Assembly (NCBI GenBank): GCA_021162745.1
Contig: JAGGYC010000102.1
Location: 1-35,493, forward strand
Source: Desulfuromonas sp.
GTDB taxonomy: Bacteria > Desulfobacterota > Desulfuromonadia > Desulfuromonadales > Desulfuromonadaceae
Direction of reading: 5' to 3'
Length of the DNA stretch: 35,493 nt
Under the pieces are notes generated by a model that was not told the origin of the DNA, did no database searches, and saw only the letters and a program-made list of their open reading frames with translations. The position numbers and the translations under genes were made by a program. Position 1 is the stretch's first letter. Every line of letters starts with the position of its first letter. This document shows, piece by piece, positions 232 to 9,396 of this stretch.

Positions 232-1197
232 TTAGTAAGCAATCCCCGATTTCTTCCGCACCTTGCGCAACACCTTCGACGCCGCATAACGCGCTTTCTG
301 TGCTCCCATGTCCAGAGTCTTGCGCAGCTGCTCTTTGTCGGCCAGCAGTTCATTGCGACGCTCGGTAAAGGGGATAAAGTAATCACGAATCGTTTCAAAC
401 AACTCTTGTTTTACCTCGCCATAGCCCAGGCCACCGGCCTCATAGCGCTGGCGTAGCGCCTGTTGTTGCTCCTTGTCCAGGAACAGGCGGTAGATCTGGT
501 AGACGTTGCAGTTGTCGGGATTTTTCGGCTCTTCCACCGGCGTCGGATCGGTGACGATGCGCATGATCTGCTTGCGCAGCTTTTTTTCATCCTGAAACAG
601 ATCGATGGTGTTGCCGTAGCTCTTGCTCATCTTCTGGCCGTCGAGGCCGGGTACGGTGGCGACATCCGTGTCGATATCCGGCTCCGGTATGGTGAAGATC
701 TCGCCGTACTCGTTGTTGATCTTGGCGGCAATGTCGCGTGTCACCTCAACGTGTTGTTTCTGATCCTTGCCGACGGGCACTTTTTCGCTGTTGAACATCA
801 GGATGTCGGCGCTCATCAGCACCGGGTAGGCGAACAGCCCGTGGTTGGCGGCAATCCCCTTGGTGATCTTGTCCTTGTAGCTGTGGCAGCGCTCCAGCAA
901 ACCCATGGGGGTAAAGTTGGAGAGGAACCAAGCCAGCTCCTGTACTTCCGGTACATCCGACTGCACCCAGAAGGTACTCTTTTCCGGATCCATCCCCAGA
1001 GCCAGAAAATTGGCTGCTGCTTCCAGAGTGCCCTGGGCCAGCGCCTTGCCGTCGGACAGGCTGGTCATGGCGTGGTAGTTGGCGATAAAGCAGAACAGTT
1101 CGTCGTGCTCCTGATACTCAACCATCTTTTTCATCATGCCGAAGTAGTTGCCCAGATGGAGGGAACCCGAAGGCTGAATGCCGGAAAGAATGCGCAT
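232..1197 (-). CDS. trpS: Tryptophan--tRNA ligase
   Basis: A cytoplasmic class I aminoacyl-tRNA synthetase that charges tRNA-Trp with tryptophan using ATP. The product is 321 residues, the usual bacterial length. The HIGH-type motif appears as PSGSLHLGN at residues 9-17 and KMSKS is intact at about 189-193. The start at 1197 is chosen because AAGGA lies nine bases upstream and the protein then begins MRILSGIQPSG, the normal family N-terminus; an in-frame upstream extension has no support. The gene ends just before a strong terminator. It is preceded by a Trp-codon leader peptide and an attenuator (separate entries), so expression very likely responds to charged tRNA-Trp, the enzyme's own product. 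Confidence 0.97.
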   Translation of the reverse strand: MRILSGIQPSGSLHLGNYFGMMKKMVEYQEHDELFCFIANYHAMTSLSDGKALAQGTLEAAANFLALGMDPEKSTFWVQSDVPEVQELAWFLSNFTPMGLLERCHSYKDKITKGIAANHGLFAYPVLMSADILMFNSEKVPVGKDQKQHVEVTRDIAAKINNEYGEIFTIPEPDIDTDVATVPGLDGQKMSKSYGNTIDLFQDEKKLRKQIMRIVTDPTPVEEPKNPDNCNVYQIYRLFLDKEQQQALRQRYEAGGLGYGEVKQELFETIRDYFIPFTERRNELLADKEQLRKTLDMGAQKARYAASKVLRKVRKKSGIAY

Positions 1198-1246: not shown

Positions 1247-1276
1247 AAAAAAAGCCACGATATAAGATCGCGGCTT
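1247..1276 (-). terminator. Attenuator terminator in the trpS leader
   Basis: On the minus strand AAGCCGCGAT pairs with ATCGTGGCTT around the loop CTTAT and runs into seven U (1253-1247). One pair (1257/1271) is G-U only when read as minus-strand RNA; on the plus strand it would be A/C. The structure is therefore specific to trpS-direction transcription. It lies 49 bases before the trpS start, with no gene between. Confidence 0.85.
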
Positions 1277-1342
1277 GATCAATTTAAACCGCGCTGTGTT
1301 GAGCGCGGTTCCTGTTTTTATCTTTCATACGAGGACACGCGT
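1267..1342 (-). promoter_or_regulatory. Trp attenuator: mutually exclusive leader RNA hairpins
   Basis: In minus-strand RNA order, segment B (1310-1302, AACCGCGCU) pairs perfectly over 9 bp with C (1295-1287, AGCGCGGUU). C with one extra U (CGCGGUUU, 1293-1286) can instead pair over 8 bp with AAGCCGCG (1276-1269), the 5' arm of the terminator. B:C therefore leaves the terminator free to form, while C:D blocks it. ACGCGUGU (1342-1335), immediately after the leader stop codon, can form a short 5-bp helix with B (GCGUG/CGCGC). It would be covered by a ribosome sitting at the stop codon but exposed when the ribosome stalls on the Trp codons. The pairings are visible in the sequence; the regulatory order is inferred from classical attenuation. 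Confidence 0.75.
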
Positions 1343-1405
1343 TCAGTCTTGAAAGCCTGAGCGCCACCACCATCGTTGTAAGGTTGTTGTTTTGGTTTTT
1401 TCCAT
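1343..1405 (-). CDS. trpL: trpS leader peptide with three tandem Trp codons
   Basis: A 20-codon ORF: ATG, then MEKTKTTTLQR, then three consecutive TGG codons at 1372-1364, then RSGFQD and TGA. Three Trp codons in a row in so short an ORF, ending just before the alternative hairpins and the U-tract terminator, is the signature of ribosome-mediated attenuation. No Shine-Dalgarno sequence precedes the ATG. The best promoter (1441-1413) predicts transcription starting at or one base before the A of the ATG, so translation may be leaderless. It regulates trpS rather than trp biosynthesis genes, none of which are in the window. The symbol is by analogy only. Confidence 0.83.
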   Translation of the reverse strand: MEKTKTTTLQRWWWRSGFQD

Positions 1406-2990: not shown

Positions 2991-4400
2991 TTATTCGCAG
3001 TTGAATAAGTGCTCCGCCTCCAGGCATTCCTGCCTGGAAAGACCATAACGTATGGCACGCTGTTTCCAGCTTGCAACAGTTTTGCAGACTTTCTGGATAA
3101 TGGCTTCGGCGTTCTTTTCATTTAATCGGTAATAGCCTGCGGTTTCACGAACAATTTCCAGGTCTGGTTGGTGATTATTAAGATCCAGTGCAAGGGCATG
3201 TTCTTCTTTTTTGAAGGATGGATTAATGTCGAAGGCCGGTGCCAATCTCCACCCGGCAGGAGATCGCATAAAACCATGGTTGCGTAAATGATCATCTCTG
3301 TTTGCGGTAACGACGTTGAACACAACCCGTGTGAATAGCTCTTCAAGGTCGGCTTTCAGGAGGTCGGGATTCCCAAATGTGGCCAAAAATTCTGCTAATT
3401 CCAGATAGCTGGCTTCGTCCGTATCGACGTGGTTTATCAGCGTCATGGCTGAGGAGAAAAAACGGCGATTCTCTCCATTCCGATCGAAGCGTTGAACAAG
3501 AAAGGTGTGGTAGCCATCACCGATCTGTATGAGCTTTGATTCTGGAACCGAAATCCCACAATCACGGGCGAGATCATGCACGACTTTTTCCCAGACAGCG
3601 ACATTGTAGTCGTCGTCCGACGAAGGGAATTTGGCAATCCATAACTGACCCTGATCATCAACAAGGTTTGCCTTGGGGCGCGCACCACCGAGTGATGATC
3701 CCGGTGCCACCAGAACTTTCAACCATTCTTTGATTTTATCAGGACCGGCCAGTTTTTTTTTGGTCAGTTCAAATGCAATCGCCTGCAATTCGGCAATTCT
3801 GGTAATCGGAGGGGCGGGCAGGTGGCTGTTCGAGAATACGTGCCGTAGCGAGAGATCGACTGGTCGAGGACAGATTTTCGTAGGTTTGAGAGCGAATAGC
3901 TCAGCTATTTGTCGAAAATCTACGGTAAATATGGGCCGGTCAGACGGTTTCGCAGTAGGCTCTTGTATTCTCGGATAGCTACCTAAGGCTTCATCGGCCA
4001 GAAAGAGATCTTGCCCCGGCAGGCTATAGCGTAATGCCCCCATGCGAGTGCAGTCCTGAACACCTAGCAGAAACTCCCAAGGGCCAAGAGTTCTTGGTCT
4101 GCGATCCTCATCCCTGGCGTCTATCGCCTCTCTGCGCTTCATCAGAATCTGCCCCCAACGATCAGGGCAGGAGTCCATGAATACTCCGAAGTTTGATCCG
4201 CCGGGGTAAAACTCTCCCGGCAAAAGATCCAGCTCAGGATCAAGCTGGAACGCATGGGAGTGAGCAAGCCAATCTGGATTATAGGCAAAGCTGACGCTGC
4301 CGCGGTCACCTTTTGACAGGGTGCCGATCTGTTGCAAAGGGCCGAAAGCCGGGTCATCAAGCCAGACCCACAGTGCTTCTCTATGGGTAGCTTTTGCCAT
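2991..4400 (-). CDS. hipA: HipA-family serine/threonine kinase toxin with an in-frame repeat insertion
   Basis: The toxin kinase of a HipBA module; family members phosphorylate a cytoplasmic target (glutamyl-tRNA synthetase in E. coli) and induce dormancy. 469 residues. The nucleotide-loop motif SSLGGARPKA is at 235-244, the lysine strand LWIAKFPS at about 253-260, the catalytic NRDDHLRN at 367-374 and the metal-binding DIN at 391-393, so the kinase core looks intact. Start 4400 gives MAKATHREALWVWL and overlaps hipB by 20 bases. Residues about 140-193 (GSYPRIQEP to NSH) are encoded by a copy of a dispersed repeat (3821-3983). The flanking residues FLADEAL and LPAPPITRIAEL would be nearly adjacent in ordinary HipA proteins. 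Whether the toxin remains active is not known. Confidence 0.93.
   Translation of the reverse strand: MAKATHREALWVWLDDPAFGPLQQIGTLSKGDRGSVSFAYNPDWLAHSHAFQLDPELDLLPGEFYPGGSNFGVFMDSCPDRWGQILMKRREAIDARDEDRRPRTLGPWEFLLGVQDCTRMGALRYSLPGQDLFLADEALGSYPRIQEPTAKPSDRPIFTVDFRQIAELFALKPTKICPRPVDLSLRHVFSNSHLPAPPITRIAELQAIAFELTKKKLAGPDKIKEWLKVLVAPGSSLGGARPKANLVDDQGQLWIAKFPSSDDDYNVAVWEKVVHDLARDCGISVPESKLIQIGDGYHTFLVQRFDRNGENRRFFSSAMTLINHVDTDEASYLELAEFLATFGNPDLLKADLEELFTRVVFNVVTANRDDHLRNHGFMRSPAGWRLAPAFDINPSFKKEEHALALDLNNHQPDLEIVRETAGYYRLNEKNAEAIIQKVCKTVASWKQRAIRYGLSRQECLEAEHLFNCE
3821..3983. repeat. Dispersed repeat family 1, copy 1 (inside hipA)
   Basis: 163 bp matching the reverse complement of 6528-6689 over its full length. 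By eye there are about 17 mismatches and one 1-base indel. The ends are related inverted repeats (GGTGGCTGTTCGAGAATA at the left; the right end reads back as GGTAGCTATCCGAGAATA). The interior contains CGTAG-TTTGAGAG and TCGAAAATCTACG arms that can fold back. It is read in frame by hipA without any stop codon. Confidence 0.85.
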
Positions 4401-4731
4401 CACGGTTATCCTGTGGGGTTTTCTTGCGCGGGGCTCTTTTTCTGCGGGGGAGGGATTCGTCTTGCAGGCGACGGCCCAACGTGTCGTCTTTGGCGAGCAG
4501 CGCCAGATCGTCCAGCAATCCAAGGACACGCAGGACGTGTACATAATGTCCAAACGCTACAGACGGATCGCCTTTTTCAATTTTGTAGAGTGTTGGGCGT
4601 GAAATATCGGCCCTTGCACAGATTGTCTCCATGGAAAAGCGTCTGCGCAGCCGGGCATCTTTCAGTCGCTGTCCCAATGACTGAGTTTCTCGCTGTGAGG
4701 CAGGGTATAATTGTAGAGTTTTCTTTGCCAT
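4381..4731 (-). CDS. hipB: HipB-type helix-turn-helix antitoxin
   Basis: 116 residues. An XRE-type helix-turn-helix covers about residues 20-75: LGQRLKDARLRRRFSMETIC, then ADISRPTLYKIEKGDPSV as turn and recognition helix. The C-terminus is very basic (RRKRAPRKKTP). HipB binds and neutralises HipA and represses the operon (family knowledge). It is first in the operon and overlaps hipA by 20 bases. Start 4731 (MAKKTLQLY) has no Shine-Dalgarno. The promoter at 4771-4743 predicts a start only a few bases upstream, so a very short or absent leader is likely. An in-frame TTG at 4755 is the alternative. Confidence 0.87.
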   Translation of the reverse strand: MAKKTLQLYPASQRETQSLGQRLKDARLRRRFSMETICARADISRPTLYKIEKGDPSVAFGHYVHVLRVLGLLDDLALLAKDDTLGRRLQDESLPRRKRAPRKKTPQDNRDGKSYP

Positions 4732-4742
4732 AATGATAAATA

Positions 4743-4771
4743 TAAATAACAACAAACTGGAGTTTTGTCAA
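4743..4771 (-). promoter_or_regulatory. hipBA promoter with a palindrome in the spacer
   Basis: Minus-strand TTGACA (4771-4766, consensus), a 17-base spacer and TATTTA (4748-4743). The spacer holds the perfect inverted repeat AAACT-CC-AGTTT (4765-4754). GATAAATA/TATTTATC elements flank the region. Either could be the HipB operator. The predicted transcript starts close to the hipB ATG. Confidence 0.6.
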
Positions 4772-6723: not shown

Positions 6724-6951
6724 CTACTCGCCGCCCAGCGCCCCGCCGTTCATCGCGGCAAATTGCAGTAGTTGCTGTATATCTAGTCCGCTCTCTTTAA
6801 CGATGCCCAAAAATACCGGCAGCAGTTGCATCATAAAGGTCGGATCTTCCATTGCCTCTTTGGCCAGGTCGGGCAGGGTGGTGAGGATAAATTGTTGTTT
6901 CTCTTCGGTGGACAAAGCCATAACGGCCGCTTGCAGTTCTTCGCTAGACAT
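6724..6951 (-). CDS. Small conserved-looking acidic protein downstream of lon
   Basis: 75 residues from ATG 6951, with AGGAG 11 bases upstream; a GTG at 6963 is too close to that site. The protein is helical and acidic (EELQAAVMALSTEEKQQFIL) and ends in a glycine-rich tail (MNGGALGGE). I recognise no family. It lies 30 bases after the lon stop in the same direction and is probably co-transcribed. A role connected with Lon, such as adaptor or substrate, would be speculation from position only. Confidence 0.72.
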   Translation of the reverse strand: MSSEELQAAVMALSTEEKQQFILTTLPDLAKEAMEDPTFMMQLLPVFLGIVKESGLDIQQLLQFAAMNGGALGGE

Positions 6952-6981
6952 CGGGTTTAACACTCCTGTTGCAGTTAATGG

Positions 6982-9396
6982 TCAGTGTGGAAAGGCGACA
7001 TTATAAACATCGCGATAGGTTTTTGCAAAGTGAACCTCAAGCCCCTCTTTTAAGTGATCGGGGAGCTCTTCAAAGTCCTTGCGATTGCCTTCGGGAAAGA
7101 TCAATGTTTTGAGGCCGCTACGGCGGGCGGCGATGGTCTTCTCTTTGAGGCCGCCGATGGGTAGCACTTGACCGGTGAGGGTTAATTCGCCGGTCATCCC
7201 CAGCTTGTTTTGAACCGGTGTGCCGCTGATCATCGACAGCAGGGCAGTGGTCATGGTTACCCCGGCCGAGGGACCGTCTTTCGGGGTGGCTCCTGCCGGG
7301 ACGTGAAGATGAATGAAGTGGCTGTCGAAAAAGTCGTCTGCTATGCCGTATTTATCCAGGTGGCCCATCACGTAGGAATAGGCAATCTCGCTACTTTCCA
7401 CCATCACCTTGCCGAGTTGACCGGTCTGCTTGAACCCTTTGTTCTTGCTCGACATGGCGGTGCACTCAATCTGTAGGGTAACGCCGCCCATGCTGGTCCA
7501 GGCCAGACCGGTGACGACACCGGCCACATTTTTGAATAGCTCATCCTGGGTAAAGACCGGCTTGCCCAGATACTCTTCAAGGTTCTTTTTGCGGACGCTG
7601 ATTTTTTCTACCCGGTCGGCGGCAAATTTCATGGCCGATTTACGCATGATTTTTTTGATGCGATTTTCGAGGCCGCGCACTCCGGCTTCGCGGGCGTAGC
7701 TATCGACAATGGTCTCCAGTGCCTCTTTGCGTATGGTGACATGCTTCTTGGTCAAGCCATGATTTTTCAACGCTTTGGGGATCAGATAGCGGCGGGCGAT
7801 CTCCACTTTTTCCGCCATGATGTAACCGGACAGGCGGATGATCTCCATGCGATCCAGCAGTGGTGCCGGAATGGTGTCGAGCTGGTTGGCCGTGGCGATG
7901 AACAGTACGTTGGACAGGTCAAACGGTACATCCAGATAGTGGTCGCGGAATGAGTTGTTCTGCTCCGGGTCAAGCACTTCGAGCAGCGCCGAAGCGGGAT
8001 CACCCTGAAATGAGGCACCGATCTTGTCGATCTCATCCAGCATCAGCACCGGGTTGGCACTGCCGGCCTGTTTCATGGCCTGGATAAATTTGCCCGGCAT
8101 GGCGCCGATATAGGTGCGGCGGTGGCCCTTGATCTCGGCTTCGTCACGCATGCCGCCCAGCGAGAAACGGAAAAAGTTGCGGTTAAGGGCGGCGGCCACA
8201 CTCTTGCCGATGGAGGTTTTGCCCGTCCCCGGCGGGCCGACCAGACAGAGGATGGAGCCGGAGATCTCCCCTTTCAACTTACCCACAGCAATAAATTCGA
8301 GGATGCGCTCCTTGACGTCATCCAGGCCGAAATGATCGCGGTCCAGCGCCCGCTTGGCTTTGGCGATATCGTAAGAATCCTTGGTGTACTTGCCCCATGG
8401 CAGAATGGTCAGCCAGTCGAGATAGTTACGGCTGACATTGTATTCCGGTGATGTCGGCTCAATCAGCTGCAGTTTCTCAATCTCTTCATCGACGGCTTTT
8501 TGACCTTCGTCATTCAGGGTCAGATTTTTGAGACGCTTTTGAAATTTTTCGATCTCGCTGGTTTTGCCCTCTTTTTCCAGTCCCAGCTCTTTTTTGATGG
8601 TCTTAAGCTGCTCTTTTAAAAAGAACTGACGTTGGTGTTCGGAGATGTTTTTCTCGATCTGCTTGGAAATTTTGCTCTGCAGCCGCGAAACTTCCAGCTC
8701 TTTCTTCAACAACACCAGCACCTGTTCAATCCGTTGGCGGACATCGAGGGTGGCCAGTACCTGTTGCAGTTCCTGACCGTCGGCAGAGGTGAGGTTAGCA
8801 GCAAAATCGGCCAGACGACCGGGATCATCCATACTGGAGCGACCAAGAAACATCTTGATCTCTTCGGAGTAGAGCGGATTGATCTGCACCAGTTCCTTGA
8901 GAGTGGAGATGATCGCCATGGAGTAGGCTTTCAGCTCCTGGCGGTTGGCGAGGCTGAGGTTTTTTTCGAGATGGTATTCCACTTTGGCAAACAGGCCATG
9001 TTCCGTGACATGCAACTCTTCGATGGAAAAACGTTCCAGGCAGTTGACCAGCACCTGAATGCTGTTCTCGTCGTCGTTCAACACCTTGACGATCTTGCCG
9101 GCAACACCGATTTGGTGGAGGTTGTCCAGTTCATCTTTGTTGTCAACATTCTTGACCAGCACCAGACCGACGGTTTGTGTTGAGCTGTTGGCAGCATGGC
9201 GGATAACATCGACCTTGTCGGCACCGTTGATATTCAAGGGGATAAGGATGGCTGGAAACGCCGGACGCGGACGGAGTGGTATAATCGGTAACTGCTCGGG
9301 CAGCAGGTCGCTGGCCAGCACCAGACTCTCTTCGTCTATTTCAACGAGGTGCTCTGTTTTGGTGTTGAGATCTTCTTTATCTTCATGATGACTCAT
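6982..9396 (-). CDS. lon: ATP-dependent protease Lon
   Basis: A cytoplasmic AAA+ serine protease that degrades misfolded and regulatory proteins, including antitoxins in other bacteria. 804 residues. The LON substrate-binding domain (about 37-230), a coiled-coil region, the AAA+ module with Walker A GPPGTGKTS (about 386-394) and Walker B VLMLDEIDK, and the protease domain are all present. The catalytic pair is Ser710 in KDGPSAGVT and Lys753 in GGLKEKT, at the same 43-residue spacing as in E. coli Lon. The N-terminus is about 30 residues longer and acidic. GGAGGA seven bases before ATG 9396 fixes the start, and a TTGACA promoter lies upstream. Confidence 0.97.
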   Translation of the reverse strand: MSHHEDKEDLNTKTEHLVEIDEESLVLASDLLPEQLPIIPLRPRPAFPAILIPLNINGADKVDVIRHAANSSTQTVGLVLVKNVDNKDELDNLHQIGVAGKIVKVLNDDENSIQVLVNCLERFSIEELHVTEHGLFAKVEYHLEKNLSLANRQELKAYSMAIISTLKELVQINPLYSEEIKMFLGRSSMDDPGRLADFAANLTSADGQELQQVLATLDVRQRIEQVLVLLKKELEVSRLQSKISKQIEKNISEHQRQFFLKEQLKTIKKELGLEKEGKTSEIEKFQKRLKNLTLNDEGQKAVDEEIEKLQLIEPTSPEYNVSRNYLDWLTILPWGKYTKDSYDIAKAKRALDRDHFGLDDVKERILEFIAVGKLKGEISGSILCLVGPPGTGKTSIGKSVAAALNRNFFRFSLGGMRDEAEIKGHRRTYIGAMPGKFIQAMKQAGSANPVLMLDEIDKIGASFQGDPASALLEVLDPEQNNSFRDHYLDVPFDLSNVLFIATANQLDTIPAPLLDRMEIIRLSGYIMAEKVEIARRYLIPKALKNHGLTKKHVTIRKEALETIVDSYAREAGVRGLENRIKKIMRKSAMKFAADRVEKISVRKKNLEEYLGKPVFTQDELFKNVAGVVTGLAWTSMGGVTLQIECTAMSSKNKGFKQTGQLGKVMVESSEIAYSYVMGHLDKYGIADDFFDSHFIHLHVPAGATPKDGPSAGVTMTTALLSMISGTPVQNKLGMTGELTLTGQVLPIGGLKEKTIAARRSGLKTLIFPEGNRKDFEELPDHLKEGLEVHFAKTYRDVYNVAFPH

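Follow-up and report, generated by a model that had tools for sequence, protein, structure and literature searches.

The trpS gene of the window, by which we mean the whole 35,493-nt stretch of Desulfuromonas sp. DNA analyzed here, lies on the minus strand at 232..1197, with its ATG at 1197. It encodes a tryptophanyl-tRNA synthetase of 321 aa, assigned to the Trp/Tyr family of the class I tRNA synthetases by its match to PF00579 (204.8 bits), and the motif AAGGA stands upstream of its start codon at 1210-1206 on the minus strand. Directly beyond the end of the gene a strong inverted repeat, GGGGAGCGTGA...TCACGCTCCCC, was found by eye at 197-226 and is probably the trpS terminator. At the extreme contig end, further downstream of trpS, Rfam matched a group II intron at 41-124 of the plus strand (49 bits), and this was the only match at gathering score over the whole window. 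On the other side, immediately upstream of the trpS promoter, a ParE-like toxin gene (1450-1716) and its partner ORF, which matches DUF6290 below threshold, occupy the region 1450-2062 of the minus strand; the ParE-like gene is on the same strand as the leader described below and 44 nt from its ATG. A second toxin-antitoxin-like pair, comprising a HipA-like protein and a helix-turn-helix partner, lies at 2991-4755 (minus strand), and a small ORF without Pfam match (6724-6963) adjoins lon in the region 6724-9396, also on the minus strand.

Upstream of trpS, the earlier note had described a 20-codon ORF with three consecutive TGG codons, and this was exact: on the minus strand an ORF of 20 codons plus stop runs from an ATG at 1405 to a TGA at 1343, encodes the peptide MEKTKTTTLQRWWWRSGFQD and carries as its putative sensor three tandem Trp codons, TGGTGGTGG, at 1372-1364. 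A perfect 9-bp hairpin (1310-1302/1295-1287), an antiterminator pairing of 8 bp including one G-U (1293-1286 with 1276-1269) and a U7 terminator, which the same note had placed one after the other before trpS, were each confirmed in position on the minus strand. The terminator consists of a stem of 10 pairs including one G-U (1276-1267/1261-1252) and a tract of seven T at 1253-1247 that overlaps the end of the 3' arm. Terminator-like sites were counted on both strands of 1150-2150, and five were found, the trpS-leader terminator among them, compared with 0.9 (sd 1.1) in shuffled sequence. Two of the features that mark ribosome-mediated amino-acid attenuators, a short leader ORF with tandem codons matching the downstream gene and an intrinsic terminator between that ORF and the gene, are thus present. 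It is highly probable that the element is a ribosome-mediated transcription attenuator tying trpS expression to the level of charged tRNA-Trp. A T-box leader was also considered and rejected, since the nine weak Rfam matches obtained in 1150-1500 with E values up to 10 included no T-box. The Rfam amino-acid leader families likewise fell far short, with Phe_leader at 15.7 bits (threshold 55) and Leu_leader at 14.9 bits (threshold 50), and no family reached its gathering score on the trpS loci of three relatives or on four trpE loci.

Conservation was assessed in 118 genomes of the order Desulfuromonadales. A TrpS match was obtained in 113, and the upstream DNA of 108 was used; the remaining five (G030, G063, G092, G095 and G116) had distant or partial matches without a gene start. 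Three regions with less than 70 nt of upstream DNA (L029, L083 and L090) were scored as misses within the 108. The strict leader pattern, defined as TGNTANNNT, 6-10 nt, an ATG and an ORF of 6-45 codons with an in-frame TGGTGG, was present in 37 of the 108 regions, representing 11/21 families and 20/49 genera, and was missing from 71. Within the window's family it was found in 11 of 13 regions, the window counted, and the rest were spread over 10 further families. The check proposed for close relatives was therefore borne out, and the reading of a Trp-codon attenuator controlling trpS stands because the leader ORF and its Trp codons are conserved in the window's own and these other families. 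Records with the strict leader include Desulfuromonas sp. (BM513, BM508, CSMB_57, STCSWMC_149), Pelobacter sp. (UBA6812, UBA6093) and Desulfuromonadales metagenome bins. When the leader peptides were compared, chiefly a WW(W)R core was held in common, and the N-terminal part differed between families. A second set of loci gave the strict leader in 16 of 42 trpS loci of the order, although this set overlaps the genome set, with several contigs the same, and is not independent of it.

Markov shuffles of the 108 regions yielded the strict leader in only 3/21,600, so chance does not explain its presence upstream of trpS in the order. No strict leader was found in 40 further trpS loci (two of them from the order), in 30 regions upstream of trpE in the order, taken irrespective of the position of trpE in its operon (three of these, L229, L230 and L234, with less than 300 nt of upstream DNA), or in 30 trpS regions from a sister order within the class. 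This sister order, to which G163 belongs, we infer to be the Geobacterales. A looser pattern, requiring an ORF of 6-45 codons with TGGTGG, accepting any of three start codons and treating the promoter as optional, was matched by 40/108 order regions compared with 2/30 trpE regions, 4/30 sister-order trpS regions and 4/40 of the other trpS loci.

With respect to the promoter, a -35 box TTGACC (1441-1436, minus strand) stands 17 nt before an extended -10 box TGCTAGTCT (1421-1413, minus strand), which is followed after 7 nt by the leader ATG. Promoters and folding were compared in 39 leaders, namely the 37 strict leaders and two with a single Trp codon (L012 and L017). The spacing between the boxes was 17 nt in 38/39, TTGAC was present in 38/39 and the combination TTGAC-17-TGNTANNNT in 37/39. 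The ATG followed TGNTANNNT by 6-10 nt in all 39, although the motif at 4-12 nt belonged to the filter that defined the set. Because the -10 box is only 7 nt from the ATG, the predicted 5' end of the leader mRNA is the leader start codon itself or lies no more than a few nucleotides away; and because so short a distance cannot accommodate a transcribed Shine-Dalgarno site, the mRNA would be leaderless. A terminator was located in all 39 leaders, including L012, in which the script misplaced it and the correct one was found by eye.

From the last Trp codon to the 5' arm of the 9-bp hairpin the distance is 53 nt, and from the leader stop codon it is 32 nt. At this distance the position of the ribosome cannot directly control the hairpin, and because the hairpin is beyond the reach of a stalled ribosome, two upstream segments (1364-1357 and 1346-1329) would be needed as a relay. 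The switch drawn in the earlier note was correct in that the hairpin and antiterminator pairings are both real, but it was half of the switch, the upstream segment pair being missing. The complete arrangement proposed here comprises six segments, all on the minus strand. Segment 1 (GCGCUCAG, 1364-1357) overlaps the third Trp codon by that codon's final base and, in the fold without a ribosome, pairs with segment 2 (CUGAACGCGUGUCCUCGU, 1346-1329), which contains the stop codon. Within segment 2, 1346-1339 pairs with segment 1 and parts of 1345-1329 pair with segment 3 (1315-1300), which includes the hairpin 5' arm at 1310-1302. Segment 4 (1295-1286) is the 3' arm of the hairpin and has either segment 3 or segment 5 as its partner, and segments 5 (1276-1267) and 6 (1261-1252) are the 5' and 3' arms of the terminator.

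The elements are present and conserved, and their pairings are seen to compete; how the ribosome would stall, the transcript terminate and the switch respond to Trp may be pictured as follows. Transcription would begin at or beside the leader ATG, and the leader would be translated as a leaderless mRNA. With ample Trp-tRNA the ribosome would reach the stop codon inside segment 2, leaving 3:4 to form and 5:6 to terminate transcription; with no ribosome on the leader, 1:2, 3:4 and 5:6 would form and the outcome would likewise be termination. When Trp-tRNA is scarce, a ribosome stalled on the Trp codons would cover segment 1, so that segment 2 would pair with segment 3, segment 4 would take segment 5, no terminator would form and trpS would be transcribed. 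This relay, in which 1:2/3:4/5:6 terminates and 2:3/4:5 reads through, is to our judgment the probable mechanism, held somewhat less firmly than attenuation itself.

All six segments could be aligned in 18 leaders, none of them from the window's family (alignment A1). Their common forms are GGCGCUGGACC for segment 1, which lies on the Trp codons, GGUCCGCGCGCC for segment 2, CCGCGGACC for segment 3, GGUCCGCGG for segment 4, AAAGCCGCGGCC for segment 5 and GACCGCGGCUUUU for segment 6. The odd segments are alike and the even segments are alike, which is why 1:2/3:4/5:6 and 2:3/4:5 constitute two exclusive states. In the first state 89.0% of the A1 cells formed standard pairs, compared with 32-44% when partners were slid by 1-3 columns, and in the second state 87.9%, compared with 30-43%. 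The covariation score of 1:2/3:4/5:6 was reached by 2 of 500 shuffles, although we think that part of this score is due to a one-base alignment shift, and that of 2:3/4:5 was reached by 430 of 500, with a single pair changed on both sides. The A1 pattern is accordingly one of conserved complementarity as opposed to covariation: because each segment has two partners, the segments hardly vary and compensatory change is scarce. Of the two things that an alignment had been expected to reveal, the tandem TGG codons were conserved, but covariation of the stems was weak and for 2:3/4:5 no better than shuffled. A further alignment, A2, was set aside as it contains opposite-strand matches.

When 163 kb of sequence was searched with a covariance model built from the 18 leaders, the window leader was matched from end to end at 37 bits (E 3.2e-6). 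In a search of the window's whole genome the leader was the top match (37 bits, E 5.8e-5), followed by one of 34 bits, with 15 extra matches in all, so that at the scale of whole genomes the model operates close to background. Under the stricter filters of a search of the class the window leader was missed and another site of that genome was listed instead. This class search, covering 277 genomes, gave 31 matches above 45 bits, all of them in the order and directly upstream of trpS, and none in genomes belonging to the same class only. The extra matches in the window's own genome and the class matches below about 40 bits, apart from those coinciding with trpS, were taken as a background of G+C-rich hairpins.

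Folding was then computed with the ribosome masked. Sequestration of the terminator 5' arm, averaged over 38 leaders (the 39 less L012, owing to its misplaced terminator), was 0.92 for a ribosome stalled on the Trp codons, 0.58 for one at the stop codon and 0.64 when the ribosome was absent. The corresponding values in dinucleotide shuffles were 0.76, 0.73 and 0.74, the stalled value being the mean of three footprints for native leaders and of one footprint for shuffled ones. Taken individually at the 5% level, 15/38 leaders passed for stalled minus stop and 12/38 for stalled minus none; without a ribosome, segment 5 was more than half sequestered in 31/38. In the window alone neither difference was significant, since stalled minus stop (0.15) was matched by 20% of 100 shuffles and stalled minus none (0.08) by 28%. 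In the window the combination of 2:3 and 4:5 was the best fold, with P(4:5) of 0.66-0.87, only when the ribosome edge lay 18-27 nt past the first Trp base. At edges of 9-15 nt the 3:4 pairing dominated (0.95-0.97), with part of segment 5 paired further upstream in the leader, and at 30 nt P(3:4) was back to 0.81. Measured from the first base of the A-site codon, the ribosome edge lies some 12-15 nt downstream and, if this figure holds, the range of 18-27 nt would be consistent with stalling at the third Trp codon. The folding results support a ribosome-dependent relay across the relatives but, taken for the window by itself, are marginal. An automated hairpin search for 3:4 was set aside as it took the wrong hairpin in several leaders (among them L002, L005, L018 and L038), and with it its counts of leaders with 4:5 above 3:4 (14/39 stalled, 6/39 without a ribosome and 11/39 at the stop codon). 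In its place, segments were taken from the aligned sequences and the pairing of segment 5 was evaluated over the whole ensemble.

The same data bear on three other explanations. A four-segment attenuator, in which the hairpin 1310-1302/1295-1287 competes with the antiterminator 1293-1286/1276-1269 and the upstream part is unneeded, would make use of two pairings that are real. Simpler layouts than six segments may moreover exist, as in L041 (372-515) a segment after the Trp codons, near the stop codon, seems to pair with the terminator 5' arm around 3:4. We nevertheless regard it as unlikely, with the hairpin 5' arm, 32 nt past the stop, out of the stalled ribosome's reach and with the stalled fold using 2:3 to release segment 4 in several relatives and, at edges of 18-27 nt, in the window. 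That the hairpins are the mere end of the toxin-antitoxin transcript, insulating trpS, and that the Trp ORF arose by chance, is suggested by the ParE-like gene (1450-1716) directly upstream, on the same strand and 44 nt from the leader ATG. This explanation is the least credible of the three: in 10 other families trpS is preceded by a leader, promoter and terminator of this kind, 16 of the 37 strict-leader regions have a homologue of the small ORF at 6724-6963 within the 600 nt upstream, a promoter-like site separates the toxin gene from the leader, and the 3/21,600 shuffles speak against a chance ORF.

A terminated leader RNA or peptide acting mainly in trans, with control of trpS secondary, as for rnTrpL/peTrpL of Sinorhizobium meliloti, would be consistent with the predicted leaderless, ATG-initial short transcript, which resembles that of S. 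meliloti (PMC7298713). It appears very improbable, though slightly less so than an origin in the toxin transcript, as mainly the WW(W)R core is common to the peptides and their variable N-terminal part fits a role in cis. The six-segment attenuator acting on trpS remains our preferred reading.

With respect to the history of the element, the leader was mapped on a tree of 96 TrpS sequences, with the single-Trp leaders L012 and L017 and the too-short region L029 scored as without leader. It required 10 changes, at least 7 of which are forced by well-supported branches, compared with 24.6 when labels were shuffled, and all 28 leader-labelled rows fell within one well-supported TrpS clade of the order (100/99, 58 rows). 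We read this as one old gain followed by repeated loss, although the tree itself leaves the direction unpolarised. Loss is favored because several regions without the strict leader retain the promoter with remnants of a terminator or an out-of-frame leader: by eye, L047, L050, L054 and L084 have the same promoter followed at once by the terminator or half of it, and L053 has the same promoter and a leader ATG out of frame with the Trp codons. Sister-order TrpS seems to represent another lineage, as it is only 33-39% identical. It is conceivable, at somewhat less than even chances, that one leaderless Trp attenuator of six segments, ancestral in the Desulfuromonadales, guards the synthetase rather than Trp biosynthesis and has been lost repeatedly, with promoter and terminator fragments remaining. 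If so, the level of the charging enzyme would be set by the cell's reading of charged tRNA-Trp. Where the promoter still stands after an apparent loss, the decay of an attenuator could also be watched.

The pheST attenuator of gamma-proteobacteria uses Phe codons and thus differs from the trpS leader in its codons as well as in bacterial group. It is an instance of attenuation of an aminoacyl-tRNA synthetase operon, and attenuators predicted before trpS and leuS in Streptomyces have been likened to it (PMC1262725). In Streptomyces lividans, trpL2 is described as a leaderless leader before trpS (PMC8079986). This leader resembles ours in both respects but has one Trp codon compared with three tandem codons here, and no uridine-rich sequence was found there; Streptomyces belongs to a distant phylum, and the likeness is one of description, not of sequence. 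For Caulobacter trpS mRNA, a study using ribosome profiling gives a putative small leader CDS, with no attenuator structure described in the text available (PMC4117421). The trpL leader RNA of S. meliloti also begins with the ATG of a Trp leader ORF but controls trpE(G), not trpS (PMC7298713). Also close, in layout, is the attenuator with segments A-F that controls the his operon in Salmonella and E. coli, in which E:F terminates with A:B as the default and B:C plus D:E read through (PMC4046918, PMC10989985). Its segment logic is that of the relay proposed here, and it too has tandem regulatory codons in a leader ORF, but it uses seven His codons and controls biosynthesis genes, whereas the trpS leader uses Trp codons and a putative leaderless start; the two are likened by layout, not by sequence.

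Searches of open-licence papers brought up none on a trpS attenuator in Desulfuromonadales, and the main text of the survey by Naville and Gautheret contains no word beginning Geobacter or Desulfo (PMC2965389). The suggestion that the case is undescribed for this order thus held within that literature, but the Streptomyces predictions mean that it is not the first trpS attenuator. Given these precedents, the lack of a Desulfuromonadales paper in that search and the lack of an Rfam match, what is new is a clade-wide Desulfuromonadales trpS leader with an unusual combination of features, within the known type of attenuation before trpS. The leader is thus an RNA element spread across a clade and unmatched in the Rfam copy searched, through which expression of trpS would be tied to the level of TrpS's own product, and it would provide a natural case for attenuation on a leaderless mRNA, where no Shine-Dalgarno site paces the first ribosome.

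Of the 108 order regions, 45 have a homologue of the small ORF at 6724-6963 no more than 600 nt ahead of trpS (16 of these 45 having the strict leader), the homologue in L011 being 72% identical. Because of this proximity in other genomes, about 5 kb carrying the toxin-antitoxin-like and PLD-like genes may have been inserted between the small ORF and trpS in the window.
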